A stretch of 7,839 nt of DNA, from assembly GCA_030638305.1 (NCBI GenBank), contig DAOWEW010000238.1:1-7839 (forward strand). The letters run 5' to 3'. Under the pieces are notes generated by a model. It saw only the letters and a list, made by a program, of their open reading frames with translations. It did no database searches and was not told the origin of the DNA. The DNA comes from Desulfobacteraceae bacterium (GTDB lineage: Bacteria; Desulfobacterota; Desulfobacteria; Desulfobacterales; ETH-SRB1). Made by a program: the position numbers and the translations under genes. Shown here piece by piece: positions 1 to 7,839 of the stretch (within the stretch, counting starts at the first letter, position 1; every line of letters starts with the position of its first letter).

Positions 1-192
1 AACATCTGCTTTTTCAATAATAGCAAGAGCCCTTGGCGCTGTGAGATCGGGCCCGGCCGGCCCCATACCCACAACATAAAGCTTTCCTTCTTCTCCTGCA
101 TAACTGACAGACACAATAAGACAAATAATCAGAAAAAAAACCGGTCATGCCATCTGATACTTTAATCTTGTCGTCGTCATTTTTCTTTCCAT
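1..192 (-). pseudogene. Third exported tetrapyrrole-methylase homologue (C), N-terminal part, interrupted by in-frame TGA, runs off the left edge
   Basis: Reading leftward from an ATG at 192-190 gives 15 codons, then an in-frame TGA at 147-145. The same frame then continues without a break to position 1. After the stop it encodes a hydrophobic stretch (PVFFLIICLIVSVSYA), a signal-peptidase-like site, then GKLYVVGMGPAGPDLTAPRA and LAIIEKADV. This is the N-terminal SAM-binding strand and loop of the tetrapyrrole (corrin/porphyrin) methylase family, and it matches the start of the mature parts of the two methylase homologues further right. A basic N-region (MERKMTTTRLKYQ) lies before the stop, so the TGA cuts a signal peptide between its n- and h-regions. 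A single TGG-to-TGA change (Trp to stop) would explain it. No ATG follows the stop at a useful place. It is either a pseudogene or a sequencing error; the rest of the gene is outside the window. Confidence 0.75.
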
Positions 193-196
193 TTTT

Positions 197-203
197 ACCT
201 CCT
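197..203 (-). promoter_or_regulatory. Strong ribosome binding site for methylase homologue C
   Basis: The minus strand reads AGGAGGT, with five bases between AGGAGG and the ATG at 192-190. It lies immediately after the TAA stop (207-205) of the receptor remnant, as expected for translationally linked operon genes. It fixes the start of homologue C despite the later in-frame stop. Confidence 0.75.
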
Positions 204-204
204 C

Positions 205-455
205 TTAAAACCGGAATTTGACTTTGCCCATAACAATTCTTCCGGGTGACACTGAATCATAATCATCGTATTCGCCGAATATATACTTTTTATCAAAGAT
301 ATTCTCCACTAAAAGAACACCGAACCGCTCGAACTTCTGGCTAAAAAAACTTCTTCAGAGTGGGTATCACTTTCCCCATACTTAAATGTCAAAGATGCTT
401 CCCTTCCCTTTTTTTATGAATTATTTCGTCCCTGTTCCTATCTTTGACTGATATT
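205..455 (-). pseudogene. C-terminal remnant of a second TonB-dependent outer-membrane receptor, frameshifted
   Basis: Minus-strand translation ending at the TAA of 207-205 gives FERFGVLLVENIFDKKY and then SPGRIVMGKVKFRF. This is the classic end of a TonB-dependent receptor: a penultimate beta-strand, the N-(L/I)-F-D-K-x-Y motif, a PGR turn and a final strand ending in Phe. About 45 codons upstream the frame is blocked by a TGA, and the receptor-like reading continues one frame over (ASLTFKYGESDTHSEEVF). The two frames join if the seven-base T run on the minus strand (349-343) had eight bases. A second possible shift lies in another seven-base A run near 411-417. No plug domain or upstream barrel exists, because the FmdE-family gene begins at once. 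It is therefore a deletion remnant that could not make a receptor. Its sequence differs clearly from the end of the intact receptor at 2586-4682, so it is not simply a partial copy of that gene. The upstream limit is approximate. Confidence 0.72.
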
Positions 456-464
456 ATATCAGTC
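446..464. promoter_or_regulatory. Perfect 19-base palindrome, candidate operator
   Basis: GACTGATATTATATCAGTC has nine-base arms around one central base. It overlaps the TGA stop of the FmdE-family gene (461-459). It is AT-rich, has almost no loop, and no T-run follows on either strand, so it looks more like a dimeric-repressor site than an intrinsic terminator. It also sits close to where the receptor remnant begins, so it could instead mark a deletion junction. No regulator is encoded nearby to pair with it. Confidence 0.35.
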
Positions 465-1622
465 TTGTATCAAATCCAATTTCTCAAGAGGATTAACCCC
501 GGGCCGTGCCCAGTCTTTTGGATCTTCTCCCTGTTCAAGCTCAAATTCTTTAATAACACTCACAAACAATTCCGGTTGATCAAAATAATCCAGGTACCAC
601 AAATCCGAGTAGAGCTTGTTTAATAAACTGCTTCCGTAGTCAGGGAACTCATGTATCTCATTGGCTTTGTCAAAAGAAAAACCAAGCAATCTGCCTTCCC
701 ATCTTTTTGTTGTGCCATCCTGGCGAAAGATAATCGTCGCAGCGTTTTTTGCTTCCTCTTTCCATTGTGCTGTGTCTTCTTCGTTTGGATAACTGATTGC
801 ATAACCCTTTTTACCGGGAGTTGTATCCAACAAAACTATTAAAGCATCTTCTTTACACCACGGTTTTACAGTCAAAACAAAATATCTGTCATCAGGTGAT
901 TGCAGAGGAAAACATTCTTTGATGTAATTAGCCATTATGATGCCGGAAAGAACCCCTGGACAGTAGTGATCATGGAACTCAAACGCTCTTATCGCATATG
1001 CAGGCGCTCCAGCGGCCACAGCATTTGCGATAGTTACAATACGAAATTCGTTGCCCCCGAAGATTTTATTTGCAAATTTTTCATTGTACTCTTCCGCATT
1101 GGCAAAAAGATGCTCTGCCTTGATGTTTTCAACAGCCGTTCTAATAAAAAGCTGAGATGCTGGAATGCGCAGATTGTTTTTTGCTCTTCGACGAAATTTA
1201 TGTTTATTCGCATTATTAATGAGCTCTGGCATTACCTCTGGATTGACTTCCAGATATACGCCTACACCTGATTTTCTGTAATAGATAAAAAACCAGAGTG
1301 GTTTATCATAGCGTGAATGTATTTCCAAAAGGGTATTACTTCCCCTCGTAACGCCAAGACGCGAGGTTAGTCCATCCATACAACCTTGCGTTGAATATCC
1401 GTCAATCTCCGCATATCCGGCGTTAGTAAGCGCAATAGGATTGCCTGTTCCGAGTCGCTGTCCGGTCAACTGGGACGACTCCCACGCAACACGCGTACCT
1501 ATGGCTTTCCAAACCCGATATTCTTTACTGGAAGCGGAAAGAGAGATAGAAGGAATCAAAAAAATTAAGGTAAAACAAATAATAGTGACCAACCCGTACA
1601 AACAATTATTCTTTTTGTGCAT
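459..1622 (-). CDS. Exported FmdE-domain protein (387 aa)
   Basis: Residues 1-30 form a Sec signal peptide: KK near the start, a hydrophobic core over about 9-24, and an S-x-S-A-like cleavage site. The central part matches the FmdE family (named after the formylmethanofuran dehydrogenase operon): FHDHYCPG at 216-223 corresponds to the family's H-x-H-x-CPG helix. VKPWCKEDALIVLLDTTPGK at 252-271 corresponds to the Cys-x-x-Asp-Ala strand and glycine turn. A related half-motif occurs earlier: GCMDGLTSRLGVTRGSN at 80-96, followed by an aromatic Lys/Arg stretch to about 123, resembling the second half of an FmdE domain without its His/CPG helix. At 387 residues it is about twice the size of a simple FmdE protein, consistent with one and a half to two domains. 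FmdE-like domains bind metal through such Cys/His residues, but this protein's role is unknown. The start at 1622 has AAGGAG seven bases upstream. It lies 47 bases after methylase homologue B, probably in the same operon. Confidence 0.78.
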   Translation of the reverse strand: MHKKNNCLYGLVTIICFTLIFLIPSISLSASSKEYRVWKAIGTRVAWESSQLTGQRLGTGNPIALTNAGYAEIDGYSTQGCMDGLTSRLGVTRGSNTLLEIHSRYDKPLWFFIYYRKSGVGVYLEVNPEVMPELINNANKHKFRRRAKNNLRIPASQLFIRTAVENIKAEHLFANAEEYNEKFANKIFGGNEFRIVTIANAVAAGAPAYAIRAFEFHDHYCPGVLSGIIMANYIKECFPLQSPDDRYFVLTVKPWCKEDALIVLLDTTPGKKGYAISYPNEEDTAQWKEEAKNAATIIFRQDGTTKRWEGRLLGFSFDKANEIHEFPDYGSSLLNKLYSDLWYLDYFDQPELFVSVIKEFELEQGEDPKDWARPGVNPLEKLDLIQD

Positions 1623-1669
1623 GATATTTCTCCTTTTTTTGAAAACAGATGTTTGTTTCTGGTTTTTAT

Positions 1670-2557
1670 CTATTGATCTTTGTCATATCTATTCGTCAAA
1701 AAATCACCCACATAAATCATGTGTTCAAAAGGAAGCTTTTCCCCTTTGGTCTTTTCCAGAATCGTATCAAGCGTAGCGTGTATAATCTTTTCTTTTTCTT
1801 TATAGCCCGCAAAGCACACAATCGCTATAGGTGTATCCTGCGGATAATGGGTTCTCAGCTTTTCCACCACCTTCTCCAGATCAAGAAACATGGTAAAAAA
1901 AGCCATGCTTGCCTGATTTCGGGCAAGCTTTTCAATGCTGTCCGGGCCGGTGTACTCCTCACGTCTGAACGAGGCGGTAAGTATGACCGAATGCGCCTTT
2001 ATGCCCGAAGTAACTCCTTTGCGTAAAGCGGCGTTCGCGGCATTAAAACAACTGACGCCGGGAATGACCTCAGGATCAAGATCCTCAAATGCCTCAAGAT
2101 ACCACATGTTCGGACCGTAAATGGTGGGATCGCCACTGCAAAGAACAGATACTACCCTACCCTCTTTTACGGCATTACGGATAATTCCCGTGATCTCATT
2201 GAGCTGCTTGATCTTTTCTTCGTAGTTAAACCGTTTGCTCTTCTTCGCTTGCTCAGGCTTTTTTCCGTATATGGCAAAAAGCCCGAATCCAGGATCATGA
2301 ATCTCTTTACCCTGCAAAAGAATAGGAAATTTATCTCGTGTCTTTTTGTTGCAAAAAATAACATCCGAATCCTTGATTGTATTTATCGCACGCAGGGTGA
2401 TGTTATCTGAATCCCCATTGCCCATGCTTACCAGATATAATTGAGTGCTGGCTTGCTTTTTCGCACAAGCGTTCTGAACAAATCCGTCTATCGAAATAAT
2501 TAATGAGATCATGGCAATAAAAATCCATTTTGTTGTGGGAATAAAAAATTTGTGCAT
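1670..2557 (-). CDS. Exported tetrapyrrole-methylase-fold protein (B, 295 aa)
   Basis: The fold belongs to the S-adenosylmethionine-dependent tetrapyrrole methylases (CobA/CbiF/CobM-like), which methylate corrin and sirohaem precursors. Visible family blocks are LYLVSMGNGDSDNITLRA (40-57), the SAM loop; VLCSGDPTIYG (138-148); VIPGVSCFNAANAAL (164-178); SMAFFTM (217-223); TPIAIVCFAGYKEKE (242-256); and FEHMIYVGDFL (277-287). Residues 1-32 are a signal peptide: a basic start, hydrophobic WIFIAMISLIISI, and an A-C-A cleavage site. The frame extends 13 codons further upstream, but the ATG at 2557 has AAGGAG six bases before it and puts the signal peptide at the N-terminus. It is paralogous to homologue A, roughly half identical by eye. 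It begins 28 bases after the receptor gene. Methylation in the periplasm, where SAM is not expected, is doubtful; a binding role is an alternative. The fold call is strong, the function is not. Confidence 0.82.
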   Translation of the reverse strand: MHKFFIPTTKWIFIAMISLIISIDGFVQNACAKKQASTQLYLVSMGNGDSDNITLRAINTIKDSDVIFCNKKTRDKFPILLQGKEIHDPGFGLFAIYGKKPEQAKKSKRFNYEEKIKQLNEITGIIRNAVKEGRVVSVLCSGDPTIYGPNMWYLEAFEDLDPEVIPGVSCFNAANAALRKGVTSGIKAHSVILTASFRREEYTGPDSIEKLARNQASMAFFTMFLDLEKVVEKLRTHYPQDTPIAIVCFAGYKEKEKIIHATLDTILEKTKGEKLPFEHMIYVGDFLTNRYDKDQ

Positions 2558-2563
2558 GTGAGT

Positions 2564-2569
2564 CTCCTT
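2564..2569 (-). promoter_or_regulatory. Ribosome binding site deciding the start of protein B
   Basis: AAGGAG on the minus strand lies six bases before the ATG at 2557-2555. The more upstream in-frame ATG at 2596 would overlap the receptor's 3' end, lacks a comparable site, and would bury the signal peptide behind a Lys/Tyr-rich stretch. Confidence 0.7.
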
Positions 2570-2585
2570 ATATTTTTTATATTTT

Positions 2586-4682
2586 TTAAAATCCAAAACT
2601 CAAAGCAACGCCGTAAGTTCGGTCTGTTGCAGGGTAGCCCCTGGCATCTTGATATTCCTCATCAAAAAGGTTCTTGATATAAAACTTGAGATGGGCGTCT
2701 TTCATCATGCCTAAATCCTTAAAAAGTGTTTGTTCTATACCGAAATCGACGATGTGATAGGGATCTATTTGAACCTCGGTAAAATACCATTCATCCTCGC
2801 CTATTGATTCGGACACCTCTGTAACCTCTTTGGATTGGTATGAATAATCAAGCATCAAAAGTGTGTTCTCGAAAAGATCAAAGCGCAGACCGGCATTCAC
2901 GTGATGTTTGGCCCGCTGATCAAGCTCTGTTTCACCGGCAGGTTCCGACCCCTGGTTCTCAAACTCCTGATATGCATAGGCAAGATAAAAAAATAAACTT
3001 TCCAGCAGATGCCCGCCAAGTTCCACCTCAACGCCATGCCTGTGAACTTTTTCAAGGTTGATCTTATAGTCACTCCATTCAAGTCCTGGAGGAATGTCTT
3101 TGTCTTTAAAACCGTATTTGTCGTAATCCCTGTTTGAAACAATGAAATCTTTAATCTCATAAAAAGCATAACCTGCTTTTAGATTCACATCATTCCATAG
3201 CCTTCTTGTAAACACGAAATCATAGGCAATGCCGTGTTCGGGATCAAGCCAGGCTCCTGAAGGTTTTCCCTGGCCGTTGTACACACCGTGATAATCCGGA
3301 GCATGCCATATCTTGCTCACCCCGAAAGACAAAGAAGTGTCTCTCAACATTTCTGATATGTCATCAAGCTCATAGGTAAGAAACGATTTTGGCACGAATT
3401 GATCCCAATTTCTTTCAATCCAGTTCTCTCTTCCGGTAATGTAAGTTGCACCCGTACTCGTATAGTTTTGAACCCAGATGTTAATATTCTCATATCGGAG
3501 GCCGGCGGTCAGATTGAGTCCTGGCATTATCGTCCACTCGTGCTGCAGATAACTACCCCTGTTGTCAATCCTCTTTTTTTTCTCGTCCGGGCCGTTATCA
3601 TACATCTGGGCAATATCAAAACCAACGGTTGTGATATGGTTTTCGCCAAACCTTATTTCGTCCTGAATCCTTCCACCGTGCTGCCACCAGATGGTTTCCC
3701 ATTCGGTGTACTCTGTGCCTGTTGCCTTGTCCCAATAATTCCTTTCCCTGTTTTCCTTGCTCTTATAAGCACCGAGGGTCCAAATGCCGATAGGTGTCGG
3801 TTGTTTGTAGTTCAGTCGATAGGAAGTGGCCTCCTTGTCCCAGGTAGGCCGTTGTATTGGATCGAAGGATGAATCTTCTACCTCAGGATAATCTGAGTCA
3901 TAATTATCGGCAGGATCGTTATTTACAGCTATTTCACGATCCGCATCAGTAAATGAAGCGCTCAAGGTAATATGCCCATCTGAAGGAAGGATGTATCCTA
4001 TTCTTCCGAATATGGTATCAATATCAGCTTCATTATTTCTCAGATAACCATCAGTCAGATACTTTTGATAGCCTACATCATATATAAATGAGTTAACACC
4101 ACCTTGCAGATTTATATTGTAATTTTGGGTATTATACGACCTATAACTGGTCGTTACATTTACATCCGGTTTTAAGTCGGGATATTTTTTAGGCGTTTTT
4201 GTGATCAGATTAAGGACGCCTCCTATGCTCTTACCAGGGTATAAAGCAGAATGAGGTCCGGGCATAATTTCAATTTTTTCTATCAACCATGCAGGAAGTA
4301 ATGCATAATCTACAATATGGCTTGATTTTCTTCCTCCGGTTTTCTGGATGGTTAAACCATCTATGGCAGTAACAAAACGACTGGCGGTGAACCCCCTCAT
4401 GGAGATGGTGTCATCATCCGGCACCAGATCGGTCTCACCCCGAAAATCTATTATTGCGCGATCCTTTAAAATATCGACGATATTCTGCGGAGTACCGAGC
4501 ACCTTATACTCATCGACATTTATCGTGGTTGTAGAAGGAGCAACTACGATACCTTCTTTCTCTCTGGGAGCAGTAACCTGTATCTCGCCTACCTTGAAAA
4601 CCTCTTGTTCCGCTTTACAAAGTTGTGGAATGCCAGCCACTATTATTGCCAGCAAAATAGCCATCATTTCAAACCTTTTCAT
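2586..4682 (-). CDS. TonB-dependent outer-membrane receptor (698 aa)
   Basis: This is an outer-membrane beta-barrel that imports a scarce ligand using energy from TonB-ExbBD. A signal peptide covers about 1-24 (basic MKR, hydrophobic MAILLAIIVAGI, cleavage after C-K-A). A likely TonB box, EIQVTAP, follows at 33-39. The plug domain spans about 45-165: TPQNIVDILKDR, DDTISMRGF with DG at 108-109, and LIEKIEIMPGPHSALYPG through GGVLNLITKTP. The barrel follows to the end, with the C-terminal IKNLFDEEY motif and a last strand ending in Phe (YGVALSFGF). Its length is typical of ligand-gated receptors of the siderophore, cobalamin or haem type. No ligand can be read from sequence alone. The start has AAAGGA just upstream. 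It is flanked 37 bases upstream and 28 bases downstream by exported tetrapyrrole-methylase homologues, which suggests a tetrapyrrole or metal-chelate ligand (inference). Confidence 0.95.
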   Translation of the reverse strand: MKRFEMMAILLAIIVAGIPQLCKAEQEVFKVGEIQVTAPREKEGIVVAPSTTTINVDEYKVLGTPQNIVDILKDRAIIDFRGETDLVPDDDTISMRGFTASRFVTAIDGLTIQKTGGRKSSHIVDYALLPAWLIEKIEIMPGPHSALYPGKSIGGVLNLITKTPKKYPDLKPDVNVTTSYRSYNTQNYNINLQGGVNSFIYDVGYQKYLTDGYLRNNEADIDTIFGRIGYILPSDGHITLSASFTDADREIAVNNDPADNYDSDYPEVEDSSFDPIQRPTWDKEATSYRLNYKQPTPIGIWTLGAYKSKENRERNYWDKATGTEYTEWETIWWQHGGRIQDEIRFGENHITTVGFDIAQMYDNGPDEKKKRIDNRGSYLQHEWTIMPGLNLTAGLRYENINIWVQNYTSTGATYITGRENWIERNWDQFVPKSFLTYELDDISEMLRDTSLSFGVSKIWHAPDYHGVYNGQGKPSGAWLDPEHGIAYDFVFTRRLWNDVNLKAGYAFYEIKDFIVSNRDYDKYGFKDKDIPPGLEWSDYKINLEKVHRHGVEVELGGHLLESLFFYLAYAYQEFENQGSEPAGETELDQRAKHHVNAGLRFDLFENTLLMLDYSYQSKEVTEVSESIGEDEWYFTEVQIDPYHIVDFGIEQTLFKDLGMMKDAHLKFYIKNLFDEEYQDARGYPATDRTYGVALSFGF

Positions 4683-4719
4683 AAATTTCCTTTCTTACCA
4701 AATCTTGTAATAAATTTCG

Positions 4720-5598
4720 TTAGCGCTTCTTTTTCCTTTTTTGGTCCAGAAAATCACCCACATAAACCAGGTGTTCAAAAGGAAATTTCGCATCTCCGAC
4801 CAACTCCAGAATTGTATTCAATCTTCCTTTGATCAGCCTTTCCTTTTCCTTGTATCCTGCATAAATAACAACCGCTATAGGTGTTTGGAGAGGATAAAGG
4901 TTTTGCAGCTTCTCCACCAGATCCTTGAATTTAGTATGCATAGTAAAAATAACCATAGTAGGATGATGTTTTGATAATTTTTCTATTTCACGAATGGTTG
5001 TAAGAACAACTGAGTGGGTCTCTTTTCCCAGGGCGACATCTTTACGCAAGGCGGCATTTGCTGCATTAAAACAGCTCACACCCGGAATAATCCGTGGATT
5101 GAGATCCGCAAACTCTTCCAGATACCAGCGATACGGCCCTCCATAGATAAGAAGATCGCCGCTACCTAATACTGCAACAGTTTTTCCTGCAGCAATCGCG
5201 GAACGGATCCCGAAAATCAGTTTTGCCCGTTTTTTCCTGTTTTCTTCGCATGTTACCTGTTTTTCTTTCTCCTTTATCATGGAACAGTCTTTTCCATAAG
5301 TCCGCCAACCGCTCAAGGAAATGTCCAAAAATTCTTTTCCCTTAAGGTATTCTGCAAATCTCTCCTTTGTCTTTTCGCGGCATACGATTACATCTGATTT
5401 TTTTATCGTATTAATCGCCCGCACGGTAATCAGATCGGCATCACCGACCCCAACGCTTACCAGGTAGAGTGCGGGTTTTCCTTTTTCACTTAAAGCTTGA
5501 CTTACGTCGCACATCTGAAAAAAAATCAGTGCACAAAAAGTCGTAACTACCATGGTCTTTGACCATGTTGCTATTTGTCTTCCACAAGTTTCTATCAT
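4720..5598 (-). CDS. Exported tetrapyrrole-methylase-fold protein (A, 292 aa)
   Basis: It belongs to the same family as protein B. Blocks, counted from the ATG at 5598, are LYLVSVGVGDADLITVRA (44-61); VAVLGSGDLLIYG (141-153); IIPGVSCFNAANAAL (170-184); TMVIFTM (214-220); TPIAVVIYAGYKEKE (239-253); and FEHLVYVGDFL (274-284). These follow the order seen in CbiF/CobM-type precorrin methyltransferases. Residues 1-35 are a signal peptide: R and K in the n-region, the core MVVTTFCALIFFQMC, and a V-S-Q-A cleavage site. The frame stays open to 5757, but that extra part translates a DNA repeat (PEYPVNPVK) and would put 53 residues before the signal peptide. The ATG at 5598 has AAGGAA upstream and is preferred. 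The usual Pro of the SAM loop is Val here, and the usual Pro after SGD is Leu, so activity may be altered. The C-terminus is very basic (QKRKKKR). It is the first gene of the likely operon. Confidence 0.83.
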   Translation of the reverse strand: MIETCGRQIATWSKTMVVTTFCALIFFQMCDVSQALSEKGKPALYLVSVGVGDADLITVRAINTIKKSDVIVCREKTKERFAEYLKGKEFLDISLSGWRTYGKDCSMIKEKEKQVTCEENRKKRAKLIFGIRSAIAAGKTVAVLGSGDLLIYGGPYRWYLEEFADLNPRIIPGVSCFNAANAALRKDVALGKETHSVVLTTIREIEKLSKHHPTMVIFTMHTKFKDLVEKLQNLYPLQTPIAVVIYAGYKEKERLIKGRLNTILELVGDAKFPFEHLVYVGDFLDQKRKKKR

Positions 5599-5604
5599 TA
5601 TAAA

Positions 5605-5610
5605 TTCCTT
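5605..5610 (-). promoter_or_regulatory. Ribosome binding site deciding the start of protein A
   Basis: AAGGAA on the minus strand lies six bases before the ATG at 5598-5596. It directly follows the third arm (CCGGAA, 5616-5611) of the competing hairpin set, so folding there could limit ribosome access. Confidence 0.65.
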
Positions 5611-5647
5611 TTCCGGATCAAAACCTGCCGGAATCATCCTTTCCGGC
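5611..5647 (-). promoter_or_regulatory. Leader with three complementary arms and mutually exclusive hairpins
   Basis: On the transcript, arm 1 GCCGGAA (5647-5641) pairs perfectly with arm 2 TTCCGGC (5633-5627) across a seven-base loop. Arm 3 CCGGAA (5616-5611), touching the ribosome binding site, can instead pair six bases with arm 2. Only one hairpin can form at a time: 1:2 frees the site and 2:3 places a stem against it. This resembles an attenuator or translational switch, but no known riboswitch class is recognised. Confidence 0.35.
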
Positions 5648-5692
5648 GATCCTGTTTTTTCGTAACAATTCAGGTCGTTCAAAGAGATTCTC

Positions 5693-5883
5693 TTGACAGG
5701 ATTAACAGGATATTCAGGATATAAAATATCAAAACTCATCCTGTAAATCCTCATCAAAATCCCTTACTTTGCGTTTGATTTCAACTCAAAGTATATTTTT
5801 TTTGATTTACTGGATAGCTAAAGTGAAACTTAACCCATTTATTCATTTGAAACAAAATCTTGTTTATCCTGTTATCATGTCAG
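5693..5883. repeat. Approximately 190-base element with imperfect terminal inverted repeats (MITE-like)
   Basis: The left end reads TTGACAGGATTAACAGGATA (5693-5712). The right end, read inward on the other strand, is CTGACATGATAACAGGATA (5883-5865), matching with one gap and two mismatches. Inside the left end are further AGGAT/ATCCT units: TCAGGAT at 5714-5720 and ATCCTG with ATCCTCATC at 5738-5755, able to form a stem around GATATAAAATATC. The interior is AT-rich without a gene. No clear target-site duplication is visible. Short AATCCTGTTAATCCTGTC-like repeats are scattered in many bacterial genomes; whether this one is mobile is inference. Confidence 0.5.
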
Positions 5884-5913
5884 ATTTTTTTCAACAGGCT
5901 AAAGTGTTAAATT

Positions 5914-7839
5914 TTATTTAAGCCACTGTTCTCTCCACATCTCCCACATCAAAAGCGCCCAGAGCTGATATTGGCGATTGATCCTGCCGGACATGTGTTC
6001 TTTAATTTTTTTTTCAACTATCACATGATCAAATAAACCTTCTTTTTTTAAACGCTCAGGAGAAAGATAATCTAAAAGAAGGTCTTTCAGCTCTTTACGC
6101 AACCAGTGACCTATTGGAACTCCAAATCCCATCTTGGGTCTTTCAAATAATTCTCCTGGTACATATTTAGCCAAAAGCTTTTTAAGAATATACTTGCCGG
6201 TACCATTTCTGTATTTCAAATTTTCCGGCAATGAGGAAGTATATTCCATAACCCGATGGTCAAGAAGCGGCACACGAACTTCAAGGCTTGCGGCCATGCT
6301 GGCCCTGTCAACCTTTGTTAACATCGCATCAGGTAGATATGTTTTTTGATCAACCCTCATAAGCCTGGAAATAATTTGCCGGCCCTCGGTTTCTTTGAAG
6401 GTATTTTCATATTGGCTTTCAGGAACTTGTTTTCCGATAAGTGACAGCAATTCTTCTTTTGACCAGTAACAAATGGTCATTCTGTACAGCTCTGAAATTA
6501 ATGTCTGGCTTATCATGCCCGTCAGTTTTTGCCACTTATCAGGAAAGTTGGCCACTCTAAATGGTTGGGGCAAAAAATCCCTGAATGGCAGGTAGCAGGA
6601 CTCTATCCAGTTTAATGGAATAGATTTTAAAAGATCGGAAATAAATTTCCTGACCGGTACCGGAAAATATTGCAATCCTCTTGCAATGGACTTAGTGCTC
6701 CAGTAACGCACGTAGCCTGCGAATTGCTCATCCCCTCCATCACCGGACAGCGCCACAGTTACATGTGAACGTGTAAGTTTGCTGACAAGAAAAGTAGGAA
6801 TCGCAGAGGAATCAGCAAAAGGCTCGTCATACATTCCTGAAAGCATTGGAATAACCTCAATGGCCTCCTTTGGTGTTACATAAAGCTCTGTGTGATCTGT
6901 GCCAAGATGTGTTGCGACTTTGGCAGCCCAGTTGGCTTCATTGTATTCTTTTTCTTTAAAACCAATGCTGAATGTGCGAACAGGAGATGAATTTACTTTT
7001 TGCATCAAAGCAACGACAATCGAAGAATCAATTCCTCCGCTAAGTAAAGCACCCAGCGGCACGTCACTTATCATTCTGTCTGAAACAGCCTGGGTAAGAA
7101 TATCATCAAGCTGCTGTAACTTTTCTTCTTCATTAAGCTCAAAATTATTTAGCTCACCTTTTACATCAGGGTATTGCCAATAACTATTGGTTTTTATAAT
7201 ACTATTCTCATAAATAAGAAAATGTCCAGGCAGCAACTTAAAAGTATTTTTAAAAATAGTTTTTGGAGCCGGGATATACTGGTAATGCAAAAAAAGAGGA
7301 ATAGAATCAGAATCAATATCTTTTTTAAATATGCTAAAGGCCATAAATGCCTTTAGTTCTGAAGCAAACAAAAAAACGCCATCGCTAAAATGATAATAAA
7401 GCGGTTTTATGCCTATTCTATCTCTTGCTAAAAACAGGCGTTTTTTTCTGCCATCCCATATTGCAAAAGCAAACATGCCAATAAATTTTTTGAGGCAGTC
7501 AACTCCCCATTGCAGATATGATTTCAGTACAACCTCAGTATCGGTATTACTATTAAATTTATGCCCATATCCTTCAAGGGTTTTTCTTATATCTTTAAAA
7601 TTATATATTTCACCATTATATATAATTGATACATCATCACTTTGCATGGGTTGACGGCCGGCAGCGGAAAGATCTATAATTGATAATCTGCGGTGAGCAA
7701 GTCCTATCCCCATCTCTTCATCATAAAAAAAGCCCGAATCATCCGGGCCTCTGTGATACAGGCTTAAAGCAGCTTGTGGAAGCATTCTCTTGAAAGAATT
7801 GAATTTTCTTTTACTTATAAATCCGACGATTCCGCACAT
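5914..7839 (-). CDS. asnB: Asparagine synthetase, glutamine-hydrolysing (641 aa)
   Basis: The enzyme makes asparagine from aspartate, ATP and glutamine. The N-terminal glutaminase domain (about 1-210) starts with the catalytic Cys2 (MCGIVGF). It carries RGPDDSG (30-36), AHRRLSIIDL (48-57), YNGEIYN (74-80) and NTDTEVV (98-104). Arg50, Asn75, Glu77 and Asp100 fit the known glutamine-site residues. The synthetase domain has the pyrophosphate loop LLSGGIDSS (265-273), VRTFSIGF (287-294), LSGDGGDEQFAGY (364-376) and the later motifs KVDRASMAASLEVRVPLLDH and KMGFGVPIG. Its length fits the longer bacterial AsnB type, which serves general asparagine synthesis or sits in surface-polysaccharide clusters. 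It appears complete. The ATG is the last three bases of the window, so its ribosome binding site and upstream neighbours are unseen. It is 315 bases from the next gene and probably belongs to a separate unit. Confidence 0.96.
   Translation of the reverse strand: MCGIVGFISKRKFNSFKRMLPQAALSLYHRGPDDSGFFYDEEMGIGLAHRRLSIIDLSAAGRQPMQSDDVSIIYNGEIYNFKDIRKTLEGYGHKFNSNTDTEVVLKSYLQWGVDCLKKFIGMFAFAIWDGRKKRLFLARDRIGIKPLYYHFSDGVFLFASELKAFMAFSIFKKDIDSDSIPLFLHYQYIPAPKTIFKNTFKLLPGHFLIYENSIIKTNSYWQYPDVKGELNNFELNEEEKLQQLDDILTQAVSDRMISDVPLGALLSGGIDSSIVVALMQKVNSSPVRTFSIGFKEKEYNEANWAAKVATHLGTDHTELYVTPKEAIEVIPMLSGMYDEPFADSSAIPTFLVSKLTRSHVTVALSGDGGDEQFAGYVRYWSTKSIARGLQYFPVPVRKFISDLLKSIPLNWIESCYLPFRDFLPQPFRVANFPDKWQKLTGMISQTLISELYRMTICYWSKEELLSLIGKQVPESQYENTFKETEGRQIISRLMRVDQKTYLPDAMLTKVDRASMAASLEVRVPLLDHRVMEYTSSLPENLKYRNGTGKYILKKLLAKYVPGELFERPKMGFGVPIGHWLRKELKDLLLDYLSPERLKKEGLFDHVIVEKKIKEHMSGRINRQYQLWALLMWEMWREQWLK

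Follow-up and report, generated by a model that had tools for sequence, protein, structure and literature searches.

Tetrapyrrole-methylase homologues with predicted export signals beside TonB-dependent receptors: a candidate metal-chelate uptake system in Desulfobacteraceae

Introduction

S-adenosylmethionine (SAM)-dependent methyltransferases are taken to be cytoplasmic enzymes, and SAM is not known to occur in the periplasm. A contig of Desulfobacteraceae bacterium (assembly GCA_030638305.1, contig DAOWEW010000238.1, positions 1 to 7,839; this whole stretch of 7,839 nucleotides is referred to as the window) raises the question of what two tetrapyrrole-methylase homologues with predicted signal peptides, termed TPm here, would do on either side of a TonB-dependent receptor and next to an FmdE-domain protein that is likewise predicted to be exported. 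The four genes are interpreted as encoding those components of a TonB-dependent uptake system that reside in the outer membrane and the periplasm. Its cargo would most likely be nickel (Ni) or cobalt (Co) complexed by an amino-acid- or peptide-like chelator, and the exported methylase would act on the ligand, a reading that is held at roughly even confidence.

Gene cluster and predicted export signals

A preliminary description of the window, made from its letters alone, had proposed a cluster of four genes separated by 37, 28 and 47 bases, all encoding proteins with signal peptides. The four open reading frames were found as described, on the minus strand and transcribed in the order TPm-A, TonB-dependent receptor, TPm-B and FmdE, and their coordinates (Table 1) and Pfam families agree with that account: TP_methylase scored 130.1 and 133.8 bits (cut-off 27.8), the receptor matched the TonB barrel (90.3 bits) and Plug (47.3 bits), and FmdE (PF02663) reached 63.9 bits against a cut-off of 22.9. 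Because the arrangement recurs widely among genomes, it goes beyond chance.

Export was predicted by a rule made for this work, which requires a net positive n-region and an 11-residue hydrophobic core and cannot distinguish signal peptides from an initial membrane helix, so that an amino-acid permease also scores positive. The rule was positive for all four window products, in agreement with the signal peptides proposed for them, and negative for the product of the neighbouring asnB-like gene. None of 18 controls, which comprised CbiF and further proteins matching its model, was positive. In the AlphaFold model of TPm-B (mean pLDDT 90.5), a helix at residues 8-29 precedes the folded domain. 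The nearest tree rows to TPm-A (L145, L003 and L004; L numbers denote loci) each have a predicted signal peptide as well. At least 4 of the 6 changes that the tree requires in the signal-peptide label are forced by starred branches. Lipoprotein-like signals were also observed, by the same rule, in some double-domain methylases (L035, L044, L071 and L074); double-domain proteins of 539-586 residues occur in L005, L035, L039, L044, L068-L072, L074 and L075.

Methylase family and SAM site

The TPm proteins belong to PF00590, scoring over the curated cut-off and having the class-III methyltransferase fold. Their closest curated model is CbiF/CobM (TIGR01465; PDB 4e16, 1cbf and 3ndc), whose equivalog cut-off of 259.65 bits neither TPm-A nor TPm-B reaches (97.6 and 119.5 bits). 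Unlike CbiF/CobM, which is without an export signal, the window proteins are predicted to carry signal peptides, and their relatives adjoin metal-transport genes. The motifs that we take to be responsible for SAM binding are retained at 86-100% across 69 exported rows, and N172, G251 and K84 are residues specific to the TPm family. L057-L086, as well as partial copies and several duplicate loci, were excluded from the tree. In it, the CbiF controls group together but attach among TPm rows (C-type and double-domain), and TPm is therefore not established as a single clade apart from CbiF. A separate CbiF over the curated cut-off exists in 8 of 20 TPm-bearing genomes, whereas 12 of the 20, including some incomplete assemblies, have no such match. 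A planctomycete protein (L054 9323-10801) carries a molybdopterin-binding oxidoreductase domain ahead of its methylase domain.

Co-occurrence with TonB-dependent receptors

Pairing of methylase and receptor was assessed in a survey of 192 genomes from the class to which the genome of L009 belongs (TPm at E 1e-40, receptors of family NF049945 at E 1e-100). TPm was detected in 25 genomes and the receptor in 30, of which 9 exceed the curated cut-off. Both occurred together in 16 genomes, where 3.9 were expected (Fisher 1.7e-9). They lie on the same contig and strand in 14 of these 16, within 400 bases in 12, at 1.0 kb in one and at 3.2 kb in another. The exceptions are G100, with the genes on different contigs, and G156, where they are far apart and the TPm has no signal peptide. 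TPm is rare in wider surveys (2/300, 2/293 and 7/195 genomes, starting genomes counted). The window order is kept in L004, where TPm, a selenocysteine (Sec)-type receptor and a second TPm are followed by an amino-acid permease and CbiM.

Partner genes and the compartment split

An alignment-based scan, restricted to one genome per species, yielded 56 loci, in which partners were tallied within 6 kb (major facilitator superfamily (MFS) transporters within 3 kb) and a locus was counted as exported if any of its methylase copies is. Signal calls were set by hand from the N-termini for the second copy of L003, the first copy of L025 and L032 (exported) and for L052 (none); L002 and L044 share one assembly, and L049 and L050 share one contig. 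The profiles used to score partners derive from clusters within this same set of loci, and families were named through Pfam and NCBIfam on representatives.

A signal peptide is predicted in 36 loci and in none of the methylases of the other 20. The former are accompanied by a TonB receptor in 31 of 36 cases (4/20 signal-less), in line with the proposal that methylase homologues bearing export signals lie near such receptors in many genomes, and the receptor ends directly before TPm in 22/36 versus 4/20. The two groups differ further in their inner-membrane partners. An amino-acid permease is found in 26 of the 36 exported loci versus none of the 20 signal-less ones (p 6e-8), while a NikA-type binding protein shows the reverse, with 0/36 versus 6/20 (p 0.001), p-values serving only as a guide. 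DUF4198 (15/36), NikL-like (10/36) and CbiM genes (4/36, not significant) are likewise absent from the signal-less group, and MFS transporters are confined to it (0/36 versus 4/20). Energy-coupling factor (ECF) genes are also present in some TPm loci. In some relatives, though not within the window, Ni/Co inner-membrane transporter genes share a locus with the receptor. The NikA-type partners fall into two separate signal-less groups of the tree (L050-L053 and L036/L037); the solved relatives nearest to these proteins and to the permease indicate no single ligand.

The receptor and its His/Cys/Sec motif

Over its full length (residues 1-698), the window receptor belongs to NF049945 (FCYXU motif-type), described in the available text of PMC12013277 and PMC13188914 as a family of predicted selenoproteins. 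That text does not mention a methylase neighbour, which is present beside the window receptor. By alignment, the Cys-x-x-Sec position of the family follows a strand ending in SKIW. Here the window receptor has HAPDYHGVYN in place of Cys-x-x-Sec (motif WHAPDYHGVYN at about residue 464), whereas relatives carry CxxU or CxxC. A pattern that was written after the variants had been seen matched 36 distinct copies, among them that of the window. His is present in 22 of these, Cys in 8 and Sec (in-frame TGA) in 6, and other forms (e.g., L091) fall outside this count. In other receptors of these loci, the aligned position is occupied by the FRAP motif. In heme receptors, FRAP and NPNL motifs occur, with a His on that loop, according to the available text of PMC3832793. 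The His/Cys/Sec motif may be where the incoming metal is bound.

In-frame TGA at the CxxU position was observed in NF049945-type receptors of L003, L004, L005, L012, L044 and L140, loci that encode exported methylases as well. A protein of 442-454 residues adjoins the receptor in both L009 (7193-8521) and L005 (3310-4674); at E 0.001, neither Pfam nor NCBIfam gave a match for the L005 copy.

Receptor loci without an adjacent methylase and the FmdE proteins

Seventeen regions (L087-L103) around NF049945 receptors that have no adjacent TPm were examined. In five of them (L096-L100), all of which combine the receptor with a NikABC-type importer, a class-I SAM methyltransferase homologue, unrelated to TPm, lies between the two. 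This identity was assigned by Pfam in L096 and L097 and by similarity to those in the other three, L098 being a 165-residue piece; the L096 and L097 proteins have no signal peptide by the export rule. A TrmO-family protein adjoins the receptor in L090 and lies two genes from it in L093. An FmdE-domain protein is the receptor's neighbour in L090, L093, L095, L102 and, on the opposite strand, L087. In L101 (131-8929, minus strand), an NF049945-type receptor is followed by a nonribosomal peptide synthetase, a radical SAM protein and an MFS transporter, possibly a metallophore locus. The remaining regions among the seventeen have no shared partner. From the unrelated methyltransferases and the other neighbours of these receptors, we infer methyl transfer over binding alone and an amino-acid- or peptide-like ligand.

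FmdE had been presented as a member of the window's system. It belongs to a wider theme, in that the genes for exported TPm are directly followed by a nucleoside hydrolase-FmdE fusion or its homologue in L006, L059, L141, L149 and L150, but as a partner of the exported methylase it is only occasional, being nearby in 3 of 36 loci (0/20 signal-less, not significant). In the window protein, E215, H217, D218, H219, C221 and C256 are invariant in 46 rows, and a Foldseek search with its model at E below 0.001 matched solved FmdE chains (2glz) only.

Other features of the window

Just after FmdE, outside the part covered by the preliminary description, a decayed second unit was observed at 1-420, made up of what is left of another receptor and the first part of a third methylase homologue (Table 1). 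L003 has counterparts of both; TPm-C-type counterparts are L003 5426-6298 and L009 3976-4833.

Table 1. Coordinates of features in the window and of the nucleoside hydrolase-FmdE fusions in related loci
Feature	Coordinates	Strand	Remarks
TPm-A, tetrapyrrole-methylase homologue, predicted exported, 292 aa	4720..5598	-	predicted signal peptide MIETCGRQ...VSQA
TonB-dependent receptor, 698 aa, NF049945	2586..4682	-	952.7 bits against a cut-off of 825
TPm-B, tetrapyrrole-methylase homologue, predicted exported, 295 aa	1670..2557	-	predicted fold nearest precorrin-4 methyltransferase CbiF
FmdE-domain protein, predicted exported, 387 aa	459..1622	-	FmdE domain at residues 216-308
Second TonB receptor, FRAP-type, remnants	206..420	-	pieces match L003 3899-3985 and the start of 5309-5613; middle gone
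Third methylase homologue, start, TPm-C type, ...GKLYVVGMGPAGPDLTAPRA...	1..192	-	in-frame TGA inside signal peptide; runs off window
asnB-like gene, precedes TPm-A	7839-5914	-	ATG at window end
Nucleoside hydrolase-FmdE fusion	L006 11002-12501; L059 2496-3869		Pfam on both; export rule positive in L059

Discussion

The sequences show the predicted export signals, the receptor pairing, the transporter context, the compartment split and the retained SAM-site residues. The metal, the ligand, the methyl transfer and the order of events are what we infer. In the proposed sequence, the receptor would bind the metal complex through its His motif (Cys or Sec elsewhere), and TonB would drive the complex into the periplasm. 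There, the exported TPm proteins, with their SAM-type site, would bind and probably methylate the ligand, aiding release or handover of the metal. FmdE, and DUF4198/NikK-like proteins in relatives, would pass the metal to CbiM/NikL-type transporters, while the APC (amino acid-polyamine-organocation) permease would move the ligand. Where the complex instead reaches the cytoplasm through a NikA-type ABC importer, the methylase would be signal-less or an unrelated methyltransferase would take its place. An imported metal chelate had been among the ligands suggested for the methylases, and their action on such a chelate is plausible.

What the exported protein does with such a ligand can be read in two ways. 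It may be a true periplasmic SAM-type methyltransferase that methylates an imported metallophore with periplasmic SAM or a SAM-like nucleoside and thereby frees Ni or Co, its compartment following the site of ligand delivery and unrelated folds filling the role in sister systems; this is put forward tentatively. Alternatively, the methylase fold may have been reused as a non-catalytic binder that carries the incoming metal chelate in place of a periplasmic binding protein, which is possible but doubtful. That SAM is not known in the periplasm speaks for such a carrier, and so does the absence of NikA-type binding proteins, the only kind scored, near all 36 exported loci. CbiK(P) of Desulfovibrio vulgaris is reportedly another exported tetrapyrrole enzyme, and it is said to bind heme. 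Exported or membrane-anchored HmuS is a further heme-binding example (PMC13227078, available text). Three observations speak against it: the SAM-site residues are retained at 86-100%; signal-less relatives occur beside NikABC, an importer equipped with a binding protein of its own; and in all five loci that combine the receptor with NikABC, TPm is replaced by a SAM methyltransferase homologue unrelated to it. The suggestion that the fold had been turned into a mere binder is thus weakened by the retained residues and by these five substitutions.

The nature of the ligand and the direction of transport also admit other explanations. A metallo-tetrapyrrole (a Ni or Co porphyrinoid, a corrinoid or heme) that TPm would hold or modify, by analogy with periplasmic metal release by HmuS, seems unlikely. 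An Rfam scan of the window matched no family, cobalamin riboswitch included, and only one of the 25 loci scanned (L005) contains that riboswitch. The recurrent inner-membrane partners are an amino-acid permease or a NikA-type importer, and more than half of the TPm-bearing genomes examined are without a CbiF over the cut-off, some of these assemblies being incomplete. The corrinoid or porphyrin that had been proposed as ligand is therefore not supported, the recurrent partners being DUF4198, NikL- and CbiM-type proteins, the permease or NikA-type importers. Defence against, or export of, a toxic metal or organometal, with Cys or Sec of the receptor binding a soft metal, is improbable. The Cys and Sec variants of the motif would suit it, as would the organometal selenoprotein systems of Haft as context (PMC13188914, available text), and efflux-type MFS transporters do lie beside four of the 20 signal-less TPm; yet the inner-membrane partners named by family models are Ni/Co- and NikA-kind importers, and the window receptor has His rather than Cys or Sec. 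Least credible of all is an ordinary cobalamin-pathway methylase pair that was misread as exported or that neighbours the receptor by chance. Membership of PF00590, the closeness of the CbiF/CobM model and the attachment of CbiF controls among some TPm rows fit such a pair, but both proteins score far under the CbiF cut-off, signal peptides are predicted in 36/56 loci versus 0/18 controls, a separate CbiF exists in eight of the 20 genomes, and the receptor pairing lies far beyond chance. The plain cobalamin-pathway reading was rejected on the basis of the cut-off, the export signals and the partners.

Several observations weigh against uptake of a Ni or Co chelate with an exported methylase acting on it. 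Because SAM is not known in the periplasm, catalysis there would proceed without a known donor. The window itself contains no DUF4198, permease or CbiM gene within its 7.8 kb, and the permease is missing from 10 of the 36 exported loci. At the survey thresholds, 9 of the 25 genomes with TPm gave no match to the receptor, and 14 of the 30 with a receptor gave none to TPm. Among the signal-less loci, 8 of 20 are without any scored partner and 2 more have a LysR gene only. Given the relatedness of the loci and the short length of many contigs, the p-values overstate independence. Partner identities are also less than firm: the NikL match lies below its cut-off (70.2 versus 100), and the one DUF4198 protein that was compared with solved structures came far closer to a chain named phosphoribosylglycinamide formyltransferase (E 3e-13) than to NikK (E 0.008). 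DUF4198 is moreover common in the class (151/192 genomes) and was for this reason dropped as a genome-level marker. Boxes resembling the consensus that we assume for NikR-type sites show no excess (4 found versus 2.85 expected). A TrmO-family gene adjoins TPm in L009, a TPm locus that carries two such proteins, and TrmO is therefore not only a replacement. Finally, the receptors beside beta- and gammaproteobacterial members matched heme-receptor models best in 4 of 4 cases tested, all below cut-off, and would therefore suit a tetrapyrrole ligand.

Relation to known systems and significance

A known parallel is HmuS of Porphyromonas, a CobN-like protein of the hmu heme operon with the receptor HmuR, which, like TPm, is an exported member of a tetrapyrrole-biosynthesis enzyme family encoded in a TonB-receptor operon and, in the available text of PMC13227078, is proposed to process its ligand in the periplasm. 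Unlike TPm, it is a large heme chelatase with a fold unrelated to the methylase. In cable bacteria, the Ni transporters NikMKLQO and NikABCDE have been described, together with an undefined TonB-dependent transporter upstream of a Nik/Opp/Dpp operon (PMC11247825, available text). The TPm loci likewise have DUF4198, NikL-like, CbiM or NikA-type partners; the terms "tetrapyrrole" and "methylase" were absent from that article in a term search. Among the papers listed in a literature search, mostly from non-subscription journals, none was concerned, judging by titles and the openings of abstracts, with exported tetrapyrrole methylases together with TonB receptors. TonB-dependent metal uptake is of a kind already known, and the new part is the exported methylase and the compartment split.

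A conserved group of such methyltransferases that bears predicted export signals, occurs in several phyla and is linked to TonB-dependent uptake prompts the question of whether there is a methyl donor in the periplasm or whether an enzyme fold has been turned into a carrier. A family of predicted selenoprotein receptors of unknown ligand gains a gene neighbourhood and a candidate role. Furthermore, these loci point to an unrecognised Ni or Co chelate that may be used by sulfate reducers and purple sulfur bacteria.
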